Source of the DNA: a virus
Virus record (IMG/VR): IMGVR_UViG_3300020165_000007
Span: 206,384 to 270,383 of that record
Direction: 5' to 3' (one strand)
Length of the DNA stretch: 64,000 nucleotides
A program made the translations under genes and the position numbers. Below, piece by piece: positions 6,094-62,143 of this stretch; positions within the stretch are counted from its first letter, which is position 1; each line of letters begins with the position of its first letter. The notes under the pieces were generated by a model. That model saw nothing but the letters and a program-made list of their open reading frames with translations, ran no database searches and was not told the DNA's origin.

Positions 6094-6765
6094 TTATGAC
6101 CCATATAATCTCCATGCATTTCTATAGTTGTGGTCCATACCAGTCATATACAATCCGTACTTATCGATTATATCTAAAAAAGATTCTTTTGCTGCCATCC
6201 CTATTTCAGTAGTTACTTCATACAAATCATCTTGATGAATATCGTGGTCAATCATAAATAGTTCGTCAAAGTCCCATCTAGTATCATCATCTCTATCTAA
6301 AAATTGTACTGAACCGTTAGTTATGCGGACCTTCATACCTAATTCAGTACCATATGGATTTTCATCAGGGTTACCTTCCGTCCTACTGATAATCCCAATA
6401 GATAAAGGTGTCACATCCATTTCATATCCTCCTGAAGATATATGTCTTTTTTTACCTATACCTATTTCTTTTTTGGCTAATTCAAGTGCTTTATCATATC
6501 CACCATAGAATTTTATTTTCAGTTTGTCAATCTCCTCTTCGTATTCTAAACAATTTATACCAATATATCTACAGGGTGTTAGTTCTGTACCATTTTTACT
6601 CCAATAGTCAAATAAGAATTCTTCTACTTGAGGACTTAGTTCCTTTTTTTTAGGTGCTCCTTGCCAACCTTCACTCATTTCATACTCATCACTTTTAGGT
6701 GAAGCGTCAGTAACATGTGAATACTCTAAGTCTTCTCTCAATATTTTACGTATAAGTTCTTTCAT
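6094..6765 (-). CDS. Hypothetical protein with MKELIRKILRE leader
   Basis: 223 aa. The first 11 residues match the neighbouring nuclease-like protein, then the sequences diverge completely. The remainder contains an SGGYEMDVTPLSIGI stretch and an acidic segment. No enzyme motif recognised. The shared leader ending in L-x-E looks like a targeting or processing signal rather than homology. Confidence 0.7.
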   Translation of the reverse strand: MKELIRKILREDLEYSHVTDASPKSDEYEMSEGWQGAPKKKELSPQVEEFLFDYWSKNGTELTPCRYIGINCLEYEEEIDKLKIKFYGGYDKALELAKKEIGIGKKRHISSGGYEMDVTPLSIGIISRTEGNPDENPYGTELGMKVRITNGSVQFLDRDDDTRWDFDELFMIDHDIHQDDLYEVTTEIGMAAKESFLDIIDKYGLYMTGMDHNYRNAWRLYGS

Positions 6766-6774
6766 AGTATGTTA

Positions 6775-6782
6775 ATAAATAT
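6775..6782 (-). promoter_or_regulatory. ATATTTAT upstream element
   Basis: Sense GATATTTATT, 9 nt before the start codon at 6765. Member of the recurring upstream motif class. Confidence 0.35.
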
Positions 6783-6791
6783 CGTTAAAGT

Positions 6792-6825
6792 AAAAAAACC
6801 TCAGTCGACTAAGACTGAGGTTTTT
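6792..6825 (-). terminator. Strong bidirectional terminator
   Basis: CCTCAGTC (6799-6806), loop gactaa, GACTGAGG (6813-6820). Seven A on the left and five T on the right give a T-run on both strands. It bounds the 3' end of the structured RNA block. Confidence 0.88.
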
Positions 6826-7771
6826 AATGTTATATATATTGGGGTAGGGAATTAAAGGACGCTGAGATTACACGTTTGAATGACTCGTCTTTTGTGGGAT
6901 TATTATTACTTTTTCCCCACTTATCCACCCCATTGACAGGGGTATCGAATCAGTGTCGGTTACTATCGGTAACCACTCGTATCGTTGATAACTACTCAAC
7001 CGTTACTAAAATCTCTTAAGACTTGCGGTCTCATAAAGGGTCGGCCAACCCACGAGTTGTTTCACAATCGACATCCTTAGACTTGCGGTCTGAAGGAAAA
7101 CTTCGTTGACAAAGGTCCGAAGTATTAGACACCTTTCGTCATCAACGCTCGAAGACTCTTGCTTTTCTAATTGATTTTAGATAAACAACATGGATTTATG
7201 AAAGATGCGCTTCGAGAGAAGTTCTATACCTTTGGAGTACAGAATGCTTCACACCTCTCTGTAAGTCTGTCAACTTACGGTAAGTTAGGACCACGTCGAC
7301 TTGTCGTCTCGGAGACCCCTCATACTGGTACTCAGCCCTACAACACCTGACAGGGTGTGTCGAACCGTCACCTGTAGCTTTTCCTATTGATATCACTATC
7401 TCAACTCTGATATTCCACGGACTCAGAGTGGTTTCATCCCTTTAGCAGTTGCCCTTAGGGTTTTGACCGTAGCCACTTTGTTTAGTTGTCAGAGTAAACT
7501 CTGCGGATATCTGAGAGTTGCTCAACACTCTTCAATCCCTTTAGTCCTGTTACCAGGGTTATCTAACGACGCTAAACCGCCGATGACTAATAACTCACTG
7601 TGATTTTAAAAAAAGGGGGTTAATCTTTTTTGATATAAACTCGATTCAGTGAGTGTTCGTCATTATTATTTCAAAGAACTTCTACAAAGATAAGAAACTT
7701 TTTTCTTAATCTCCAATTTTTTTTTACTTTTTTTTAAAAGGTAATATATAAATATACTGTTTTGTCTAAAA
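6799..7771 (-). ncRNA. Candidate large structured non-coding RNA
   Basis: About 950 nt without any credible gene, the only such gap in the window. It has a host-type promoter (7808-7779) and a strong terminator (6825-6792), both reading on the minus strand. Short perfect hairpins are dense between 6927 and 7654: ACCCC/GGGGT (6927-6943), GGTTAC/GTAACC (6958-6974), AGAC/GTCT twice with the same 5-nt loop (7019-7031 and 7079-7091, the second extended by CCTT/AAGG), AACTTA/TAAGTT (7272-7286), ACACC/GGTGT (7343-7358), ACTCTGA/TCAGAGT (7404-7429), CAGAG/CTCTG (7490-7503), CCTG/CAGG (7546-7557), ACTCACTG/CAGTGAGT (7593-7654). Base composition is richer in G+C than the flanks. Size, ornate folding and phage context resemble GOLLD or ROOL RNAs, but I recognise no defining motif. 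Strand is inferred from promoter, terminator and neighbours. Confidence 0.7.
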
Positions 7772-7778
7772 GGTTGTA

Positions 7779-7808
7779 CAAATATATAAAAAATCTTTCA
7801 TATATCAA
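7779..7808 (-). promoter_or_regulatory. Bacteroidota-type promoter of the structured RNA
   Basis: Minus strand TTG (7808-7806), 19-nt spacer, TATATTTG (7786-7779). The start of transcription is expected near 7771, upstream of the hairpin block, with no coding sequence following. Confidence 0.7.
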
Positions 7809-7822
7809 TCAAAAACACCATA

Positions 7823-8035
7823 TTATTTAGAATACTGTTTATAATTACTATTTAATGTATCTAAATTACCCTCAGCAGTAGCAAGTTTTTCTATTAATTT
7901 ATCCATTTCTTCAATAATACCTGGATGTTCTCCAATACCCGTGGGATTGTTAAAGTAAATTTCTAATGTAGCTAAACACTCTAACTTGTCAGCCTCATAC
8001 TTAGACTTTAATGCTTTGTAAATATAGTTTTTCAT
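7823..8035 (-). CDS. Hypothetical protein (70 aa)
   Basis: Helical, coiled-coil-like small protein (IIEEMDKLIEKLATAEGNLDTLN). Overlaps the Nudix gene stop by 4 nt. Function unknown. Confidence 0.65.
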   Translation of the reverse strand: MKNYIYKALKSKYEADKLECLATLEIYFNNPTGIGEHPGIIEEMDKLIEKLATAEGNLDTLNSNYKQYSK

Positions 8036-8439
8036 TTTAAAATTATGTTTAATAGTTTATTAAGTTGTTTCGTCATTGGTTCCGGTAATTCGTCTTTACC
8101 GAAGTATCCACATTCACTGTGTTCATCACCATCTATAGCGTTATCCAAGTCAGGATATATAGGTTCTTCTGTATCTAAAAGATGACAATACATCACTCCC
8201 TTTAAAATTTCTCCGTCTCTTGTGTACCTTTTTATTGCACCAATAAATTCGACATTACCGTAGATAGGTAAATCTGTTTCTTCAATAAATTCCCTAACCG
8301 CAGCTTCTCTCGGTGTCTCTCCTTGCTCCATTTTCCCGCCAGGACAAGACCAAAAACCTGGTAATGTTCCTTCATTGTTTCTTTTACATAGTAAAACTTT
8401 ATTTTCATGTCTCACTATTATTCCAGCATATTTCTTCAT
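8032..8439 (-). CDS. Nudix hydrolase (MutT-like)
   Basis: Complete Nudix box at residues 34-58 in the GX5EX7REUXEEXGU pattern (GGKMEQGETP then REAAVREFIEETDL). The protein begins KYAGIIVRHENKVLLCKR as in MutT/NudG-type proteins. 135 aa, a standard single-domain size. It probably hydrolyses a modified nucleotide or nucleoside diphosphate derivative; the substrate cannot be read. Start codons of this gene and the divergent DUF192 gene lie less than 20 nt apart. Confidence 0.92.
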   Translation of the reverse strand: MKKYAGIIVRHENKVLLCKRNNEGTLPGFWSCPGGKMEQGETPREAAVREFIEETDLPIYGNVEFIGAIKRYTRDGEILKGVMYCHLLDTEEPIYPDLDNAIDGDEHSECGYFGKDELPEPMTKQLNKLLNIILK

Positions 8440-59414: not shown

Positions 59415-62114
59415 TTAAGTTAGTGGAGCAGTACAGTCGTATATTGTTATATTTTCAGCGATGGGGGTATTAGCGTTAACCACATTTCCACAGTTACTAT
59501 TATTTAACCTTAGATTAGATACTTGTAATGTCGTATTATATGTTCCGACCATTCTACACTCTGGAGAACAATCAACTCCATTACCACTTATAGTTACAGT
59601 TTGAGTTACAACACCGTTTAATGAAGTATCTGTACTACTTAAATTTAAAGAATTTACAAAGTTTGTGAAGGTTTCAGTAATTTGTTGTGTTGGTTTTACC
59701 GTACATCCTGTATCGACAGATGTTGTTACGGTTGCTGAGGTATTATATGGTATATTTAAATTACCGTTTTTAGTAATTGTATGTACATAACTAAATGATG
59801 ATATTCCAGTATCCCTATATTGTCTAATGTGATTTAAACTTAAATTGAAGGTTATGTCTTCACCCGCACTTAACGCAGGATTAATCTGAACTCCGTAGTT
59901 CCAAGTTCTTGTTCCATTACTACTGTTAGTTACATTTGATGTTAAACTTACAGTATATGTCGTTGAATCCTCACCTTGGTTAATTGTAAATACTGTAGTA
60001 GTGGTATTTCCTGAATTATCCTGCACCTCCCCTAAGTAATTACCTGACGATAAACCGTTAAATATACCAACATTACTATATGCTGGGTATGGTAATATGT
60101 TTTGCACTCTATATTGATATGGAGGATATCCCCCGTCTGCAGTTAGTATTACCGCACCATTTTCATTCCCTTTACACACCTCGTCACTTATTACAGAATT
60201 TAAAGTTAATGGTATCCCTAAACATGAACCTTCAGTCATTTCCCATGTAAGTGGTTGATTATTACCTAAGTTAGTAAAGTTACCTGTAGGTATAGTCTCG
60301 TTAACATTTCTAACCATACCTCCAACACCTATATTAGTCCATGGAGTTATCTCCCATCTATTTAAAGAGATATTATATTTTAAAGTTAAGGTGTTTGGTG
60401 TGTTTTCCCACACAAAATAATTATTTACATCCGTACCACTAGGTGTAAAATCGTATTGATTATTCGAGTTGGAAAAACATAAGGTAGGTTGAAATATTGG
60501 GTTAGGTGGGGATGGTTGACATTTCAAACAACTATCATATATGTTAGATACTGTTAATGCTGAGAATGTTTGACCTGTAGAAAGTAACCTTTGGTTATAT
60601 GAATAACAACCGTTTGTGTTAGTAAAATTATATATTGTGTTACCTGTTAGTCCAGCTATTGGTGATGTGTAAATTTTTTCGGTTGATAGACTGATACCTG
60701 AGAAGAACTCATCTATTACTTCACCTACCACTCCCCCTTGGAATCCTCCTACTGTGGGGTCTACTTGCCAATCAAAATTCTTTAATCCTGCACCGTTTTT
60801 ATATGTTGGGTTTAAGTTAGTATATGTAGTAGTACCAGTTAATCCTGAATATACGTTTGTGGTGGTTAACGCGCTTAAATTTAAACTTAATGGTCCCACA
60901 TTTGTTATAGGTGTATCGTATTTATCCTCAAAGGTTGTTGCGGATATAGTCGTCCCTTCTACCGCAGCAACAGTATGTTGGATATATGGTATCTCTGCCG
61001 TGTTATTTTCAATAACAGGGAAAATAAATCCTTCAAATCTTCCACTCTCATCTTTTATGTCTTCCCATACTTTCAAAAAGGATTCATAGTCATGAGTAAA
61101 TCTATTCGACGGTTCCTGTTGGGTTGTCGCACTCCATCCCGTACCTGACAAAGCAAAAGGGTTGGTGAATAGATAGTTTTTATTTGGCTGTCCACTTATT
61201 GTGTTAACATTACCATGATATAGTCCGGTATCTCCATCTGCCTCATCTGATACTATTATACATAAATAGTTTTTATCACCACCAATAAAATCGCCATATA
61301 TTGTTTCGTAATTACCTGTCATAGATGGTGTAACTGTGAAGGGTACACCCATACTTCTAACATCATCACTACCATAAGCACCTGTTAAGGTAAAACCATT
61401 ATTAATTCTCTGATATATATCTGATATTAAACCTCCAGCAACTGATGTACTAAAATTAAAAGATGGTTGTCTAGGTACACATTTTCCACCGTCACTAGAT
61501 TCACACCAATTCGAGTTATATGTTGAATAGTTTACTGATTGTCCGTCGAGTCCAAAAGATTTTATCTCTGTTATTCCATCTGATAGCGTTCCACCTGTTA
61601 AAGAACCCAAATATGGGTATGTTGACCACCATAACCAATTCTCAGCATTGTGATTTTCTTTACCTACTACACCTTCATATAATAATCCACCAAATCCATT
61701 ATTCTTTTTAGTCTGATACCAAGTTCTTATACTTTCCGAGGCTTGTGCCGCTGTTGTATAATTTAAAGATGTTCCATCATAAAATACAAATATATTCGGG
61801 TTAAATTCTTCTTCACATTTTATAAATTCATCTAAATAAAACGTATCATTACCTACAGTACATGTGACAGTCGTAGTATAATCACCATAATAATCTGTTA
61901 CTGTAGCAACATAGTTTCCTGATTGTAAGTTACCTATATAGTTACCGACACCTCCATTAGCCCAAGTAACTGTATAAGGTGATGTCCCTCCGTTAATAAA
62001 TAACTGAATAGAACCGTCTTGAGTTTCAGGACTTGTAGCATTTGTAGGGTTACAAGTCACCTCAAGAGGTCTTAAGCTAATAACATTACAATTATTTTGA
62101 TTAATTTCTGACAT
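59415..62114 (-). CDS. Large structural protein with SprB-like repeats and a vWA-like region (899 aa)
   Basis: The longest frame uses TTG at 62129; the ATG at 62114 (MSEINQNNCNVISLR) is preferred. Residues about 10-95 and about 640-715 form SprB-type repeats (DGSIQLFINGGTSPYTVTW, SGNYVATVTD; NGAVILTADGGYPPYQYRV, SGNYLGEVQD), named after the flavobacterial gliding adhesin. Between them lies a segment with NIFVFYDGTSLNY and YLCIIVSDEADG resembling a von Willebrand A fold. Probably a tail fibre or receptor-binding protein. Confidence 0.75.
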   Translation of the reverse strand: MSEINQNNCNVISLRPLEVTCNPTNATSPETQDGSIQLFINGGTSPYTVTWANGGVGNYIGNLQSGNYVATVTDYYGDYTTTVTCTVGNDTFYLDEFIKCEEEFNPNIFVFYDGTSLNYTTAAQASESIRTWYQTKKNNGFGGLLYEGVVGKENHNAENWLWWSTYPYLGSLTGGTLSDGITEIKSFGLDGQSVNYSTYNSNWCESSDGGKCVPRQPSFNFSTSVAGGLISDIYQRINNGFTLTGAYGSDDVRSMGVPFTVTPSMTGNYETIYGDFIGGDKNYLCIIVSDEADGDTGLYHGNVNTISGQPNKNYLFTNPFALSGTGWSATTQQEPSNRFTHDYESFLKVWEDIKDESGRFEGFIFPVIENNTAEIPYIQHTVAAVEGTTISATTFEDKYDTPITNVGPLSLNLSALTTTNVYSGLTGTTTYTNLNPTYKNGAGLKNFDWQVDPTVGGFQGGVVGEVIDEFFSGISLSTEKIYTSPIAGLTGNTIYNFTNTNGCYSYNQRLLSTGQTFSALTVSNIYDSCLKCQPSPPNPIFQPTLCFSNSNNQYDFTPSGTDVNNYFVWENTPNTLTLKYNISLNRWEITPWTNIGVGGMVRNVNETIPTGNFTNLGNNQPLTWEMTEGSCLGIPLTLNSVISDEVCKGNENGAVILTADGGYPPYQYRVQNILPYPAYSNVGIFNGLSSGNYLGEVQDNSGNTTTTVFTINQGEDSTTYTVSLTSNVTNSSNGTRTWNYGVQINPALSAGEDITFNLSLNHIRQYRDTGISSFSYVHTITKNGNLNIPYNTSATVTTSVDTGCTVKPTQQITETFTNFVNSLNLSSTDTSLNGVVTQTVTISGNGVDCSPECRMVGTYNTTLQVSNLRLNNSNCGNVVNANTPIAENITIYDCTAPLT

Positions 62115-62143
62115 TATATATAAATACAATCATAAAATGATTT

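Follow-up and report, generated by a model that had tools for sequence, protein, structure and literature searches.

A GOLLD RNA gene with a boxA-like leader in the genome of a large, probably Bacteroidota-infecting phage

Results

A single long gap without genes lies at 6766-7822 of the stretch of DNA analysed here (the window; 64 kb, bases 206,384-270,383 of a 270,383-base IMG/VR virus record), as the first-pass annotation had pointed out. With a gap defined as a stretch without an open reading frame (ORF) of 60 codons, and with a mechanical 66-aa ORF at 7196-7396, inside the RNA, set aside for this count, it measures 1,057 nt compared to 440, 416 and 327 nt for the next longest gaps. The features located in it are listed in Table 1. 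The RNA runs on the minus strand from about 7680 to about 6794 (coordinates good to about 100 nt), which corresponds to a transcript of about 890 nt if started at the proximal promoter, or of up to about 990 nt if started at the distal one. Its GC content is 42.9% over 6859-7664 compared to 32.1% for the window, and the folding energy of the 889-nt transcript is -255.5 kcal/mol compared to -223.1 kcal/mol (sd 8.3) for 20 shuffled sequences, all of which were weaker (z = -3.9). Sequence and fold thus bear out the initial impression of a sizeable, structured phage RNA that has a promoter and a terminator to itself. The carrier is a phage or prophage, given as a virus record in IMG/VR and with phage-family proteins encoded nearby, and the probable host of this large phage belongs to the Bacteroidota. 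A 904-aa protein with an SprB repeat (Pfam PF13573), encoded at 59415-62129 of the window, fits such a host.

Table 1. Features of the GOLLD locus, in the direction of transcription (window positions)
Feature	Position	Strand	Basis and remarks
Distal promoter, Bacteroidota type, TTG-N19-TATATTTG	7779..7808	-	Sequence
Proximal promoter, TTGG-N20-TATCTTTG	7685..7716	-	Sequence; nearer the RNA, absent from the first-pass annotation
boxA-like leader, AGTTCTTTGAAAT	7668..7680	-	Single copy in window; core near-constant in place in related loci; resembles host rRNA boxA
5' terminal stem, ACTCACTG/CAGTGAGT, with enclosed variable arm	7587..7654	-	Two-sided replacement in L025
GOLLD 5' domain (cap domain by analogy with cryo-EM structure)	7260..7582	-	Alignment A2, 30 sequences
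GOLLD 3' domain, RF02032	6859..7259	-	Rfam, 299.8 bits, model 1-416/416
Variable linker, ~38 nt	7166..7203	-	Rfam alignment, coordinates; no tRNA inside
Hairpin AGAC-CGCAA-GUCU, first copy	7079..7091	-	Sequence; maps to CGCAA loop near model 195-206
Hairpin GGG-UUGGCCGA-CCC, probable L21a, self-complementary GGCC	7038..7051	-	Central GC kept; naming by analogy (PMC12286853)
Hairpin AGAC-CGCAA-GUCU, second copy	7019..7031	-	Sequence and Rfam alignment
Intrinsic terminator, 13-pair stem and T run	6794..6825	-	Sequence; also scores on plus strand

Searching the whole window with the 4,227 Rfam families gave GOLLD (RF02032) as the sole match, with an E-value of 8.6e-85 and a bit score of twice the gathering score of 150, and the whole 270-kb genome holds one GOLLD. 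Over 6600-8100 no other family of the 4,227 searched, ROOL included, matched even at an E-value of up to 1; the tmRNA, rRNA, group I/II intron and OLE models likewise gave no match at the locus. Judged by this model match, the gap encodes a GOLLD RNA and as such a new member of an already known RNA class. The first-pass annotation had proposed GOLLD or ROOL from size alone, of which GOLLD proves right and ROOL fails on the model search, and had seen no motif assigning the locus to GOLLD, a statement overturned by the match to the full RF02032 model. It had named matches to rRNA, intron or tmRNA models as refuting its suggestion of a possible new class; none of these occurs, and it is the full-length GOLLD match that removes the new-class reading in their stead. 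Loci encoding homologues of the neighbouring protein carry a GOLLD at the same place, both at 87% identity (L025/L026, 304.9 bits) and at 99% identity (L013/L027).

The Rfam model ends at 7259 and covers the 3' 416 positions only, while the 5' domain as a whole spans 7260 to about 7664. That this 5' half lies outside the model is what could still speak for a new class of giant RNA of similar size, neither GOLLD nor ROOL. In the alignment of 30 non-redundant relatives, 94 consensus pairs were found, 45 of them with both-sided changes (27.3 in shuffles), 98.4% of the cells pair and the covariation score is 0.381 (0.168 in shuffles, at most 0.078 in slid-partner controls). None of 500 shuffles reached any of the five measures, a large margin; as the 30 sequences are related and the structure was itself derived from their alignment, these numbers are not probabilities. 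The check on homologous loci called for in the first-pass annotation thus did bring out covariation, and by this evidence the upstream half is a structured 5' domain of GOLLD, separate and covarying. Dozens of loci combine it with the GOLLD 3' domain, and variability of the 5' half is among the properties described for GOLLD (PMC12286853), which, next to the full-length match far above the cut-off that already refutes a new class, leaves that reading a practically negligible probability. The terminal stem of the 5' domain is swapped on both sides in L025, to AACCTTTG/CAAAGGTT; the single-sequence test of this stem is weak and suggestive only.

The TTG-N19 promoter previously proposed is present, and in the L025 homologue takes the form TTG-N19-TATCTTTG. 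The layout of the proximal promoter is common to L025 and the L006 group (TTTG-N20-TAATTTTG). The predicted minus-strand terminator was likewise found, and it is kept in L025 with its loop changed. These observations bear on whether the locus could be a degenerate GOLLD remnant without expression, a view open to a GOLLD that is known in this phage from sequence alone. Every model position is matched, however, nearly all cells of the 5' domain pair, and promoter, terminator and leader are all kept in L025, which makes a remnant very improbable.

Within the 3' domain, the twin AGAC-x5-GTCT hairpin noticed earlier was recovered as one 13-mer, AGACCGCAAGTCT, which occurs exactly twice on the minus strand. 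The central GC of the hairpin between the two copies is retained by almost every aligned hairpin that belongs to the same 5' type; it did not vary, hence no covariation signal is possible there. By analogy, this GGCC loop is probably the self-kissing L21a bridge between half-shells, the loops of the present RNA being matched only in part to the names used in the cryo-EM paper. GOLLD is often, not obligatorily, found near tRNA genes. Here no tRNA gene lies within the 64-kb window and the nearest one is about 37 kb away from GOLLD.

Other carriers of GOLLD are phages of Acinetobacter and of Mycobacterium, along with two huge uncultured phages, L002 (634,780 bases) and L051 (642,428 bases). The GOLLDs of the huge phages are of a different 5' type, that of L002 with a boxA-like leader and that of L051 with a tRNA-like end upstream instead. 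In Mycobacterium phage Estes, a tmRNA and a GOLLD (L004:1538-1901 and 2499-2920) lie about 600 nt apart in a tRNA array, neither being named in the annotation. At L005:7252-7324 a tRNA-Gln sits inside the GOLLD linker, which is a known arrangement. With stricter filters, no GOLLD was found in Lactobacillus phages LP65 and Lb338-1, Enterococcus phages EFDG1 and EF24C and Vibrio phage ICP1; an abundant ICP1 transcript, reportedly compared in size with GOLLD by others, therefore does not count as a GOLLD under this model. A GOLLD search of genome contigs gave 14 chance matches and no GOLLD. For LOOT RNA, a search of the phage genome gave no match and neither did its control, which makes this negative uninformative.

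The antitermination signal of rRNA operons, boxA, is the site of NusB/S10 action. Directly after the proximal promoter lies the leader AGTTCTTTGAAAT, present once in the window compared to 0.05 copies expected; it resembles the host element, reads on the coding strand and stands close to where an untranslated transcript would begin. In the proximal transcript it would occupy the 5' end or nearly so, unlike in rRNA leaders, a point against boxA. Of the 53 distinct GOLLD loci for which 600 nt or more of upstream sequence is available, 40 have its exact core, GTTCTTTGA, upstream, compared to 136 of 2,600 random 900-nt stretches from the same loci; these loci are related and not independent events, and most had been retrieved through a motif in the 5' domain, a criterion that makes no use of the leader. 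The 46 loci with this 5' domain divide into 38 with the exact core and eight with a close variant (GTTCTTACA in six, ATTCTTTGA and GTTCTTTTA in the others), mostly placed 414-444 nt before the 3' domain. In several relatives a small hairpin precedes the element, an order that recalls the boxB and subsequent boxA of E. coli rrn leaders. The exact core is missing within 900 nt upstream of the Acinetobacter and Mycobacterium phage GOLLDs and of those in L005 and L007, so that, as far as sequence tells, the leader is not a general feature of GOLLD.

In Bacteroidota, 16S-23S spacers carry AGTTCTTTGACATATTGG after tRNA-Ile/tRNA-Ala (L270-L272 and L279, the 23S start being seen in L270 only), which is where a spacer boxA is expected. 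Flavobacterial 16S leaders carry AAGTTCATTAACATATTG, and host 16S-23S spacers have the 17-mer of the GOLLD relatives with one base changed. Only two of the 41 promoter-like sites in the phage genome have the core behind a TANNTTTG promoter, those of GOLLD and of a phage-encoded tmRNA. The latter gene (genome 135,635-136,024, plus strand; L020:15635-16024), which has an Rfam score of 97 bits and was missed by ARAGORN, combines a Bacteroidota-type promoter with the boxA-like leader of GOLLD. A third copy of GTTCTTTGA, at 165,528, lies inside the tRNA array of a region (L022, genome 163,842-176,421) with 13 tRNA genes, most of them in one array. A 112-codon ORF at genome position 167,842 has the core in front of it as well, which counts against the boxA reading.

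Across viral contigs, the exact 17-mer AGTTCTTTGAAATATTG was found in at least 120 stretches and the reversed 17-mer in 17. Among the 17-mer matches listed, 28 of 90 distinct contexts adjoin a tRNA, tmRNA or GOLLD (none of 15 in the control), and 35 of 90 distinct sites lie inside ORFs, which again speaks against boxA. At least 27 intergenic AGTTCTTTGAAATATTG sites (in L069, L121, L147, L150 and others) have no assigned RNA gene, some of them sharing downstream sequence; intergenic sites of this kind may mark further stable RNAs. At L117:3435 (after a tRNA) and in L157 (minus strand, after a promoter) the sequence past the element continues near-identically, as ATAGTGGTTTTCCCCAC...CAACGGATGTCGACAATCCAGAGT, which is perhaps an RNA of its own.

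Instead of being a boxA, the AGTTCTTTGAAAT leader could belong to the fold of the RNA, with the 5' domain's invariant TTAGATAAC as its pairing partner, or to a phage-specific promoter, or be a start-site element. Indeed, the minimum-energy fold pairs it with UUAGAUAAC, and the window, the L025 group and the L006 group all keep it at one fixed distance from the proximal promoter. Other relatives, however, keep the element with the promoter about 30 nt further up and the small hairpin in between, the GTTCTTACA variants would weaken the pairing, and the element stands before the tmRNA, in tRNA arrays and in host 16S-23S spacers, all without a GOLLD 5' domain. We consider a role in folding or initiation rather unlikely and infer from its likeness to host sequences that the leader is a boxA antitermination element. 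No paper treating boxA together with GOLLD or ROOL was found in a literature search that had most subscription papers outside its reach, and the boxA-like leader of GOLLD is apparently newly described as far as this literature goes.

Discussion

The locus is best read as a minus-strand GOLLD gene of about 890 nt in a large, probably Bacteroidota phage, with a transcript that boxA would help to complete and that would, by homology, form a cage, a reading to which we assign a probability of roughly 0.8. In the mechanism proposed, host RNA polymerase would transcribe the gene, the boxA-like RNA would, going by its sequence, recruit NusB/S10-type factors as on rRNA operons, and antitermination would shield the ~890 untranslated nt from premature (Rho) termination, three steps that are fairly well supported. 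The same device would be applied by the phage to its tmRNA and tRNA array. By analogy with env-38, the RNA copies would fold without protein and oligomerise into a closed hollow cage, which might, as a weak suggestion, be made late in infection and hold linkers or some cargo. In env-38 GOLLD (PDB 9MEE), the one solved example, 14 copies enclose the linker in a closed shell measuring 380 Å across, which assembles without protein through kissing loops and A-minor contacts (PMC12286853). GOLLD reportedly accumulates during lysis (PMC12286853) and was dispensable for phage production in one prophage tested (PMC7567579); an association with ribosomes in pull-downs is mentioned second-hand in PMC12286853.

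This GOLLD of a large Bacteroidota phage is unlinked from tRNA genes and has a short linker free of tRNA. Carriage of a tRNA in the linker is therefore not its job in this phage, and such an arrangement argues against linker tRNA carriage as a general function of GOLLD. The boxA-like leader suggests, in a form open to direct test, how a phage could complete an untranslated RNA of 890 nt without a Rho stop, and it places GOLLD with the tmRNA and tRNA genes of the phage in a single group of stable RNAs. We think it somewhat probable that Bacteroidota phages use a copy of the host rRNA boxA to drive GOLLD, tmRNA and tRNA genes, so that rRNA-type antitermination would make the cage RNA; if this is true, the element becomes a usable flag for further stable RNA genes in Bacteroidota phages.

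Compared to known systems, the RNA resembles ROOL in being a large phage RNA of similar size that would form cages, here by homology only, and differs from it in that the ROOL model had no match in a search of all families. It departs from env-38 GOLLD in lacking a tRNA gene for 37 kb around, in having a promoter and a terminator of its own, a boxA-like leader and a short, tRNA-free linker, and in that the 14-copy assembly, determined on env-38, is a prediction for the present RNA; both are phage-borne and share the full 3' domain match, a separate 5' domain of about 400 nt and a variable linker, and a putative L21a-like loop with a central GC would be a further likeness. The leader, finally, differs from rRNA boxA in being viral, in lying very close to the proximal transcript start and in that factor binding is predicted, and it shares with rRNA boxA the sequence itself (AGTTCTTTGAAATATTG in GOLLD relatives, AGTTCTTTGACATATTG in Bacteroidota 16S-23S spacers), a promoter upstream and a long untranslated RNA downstream.
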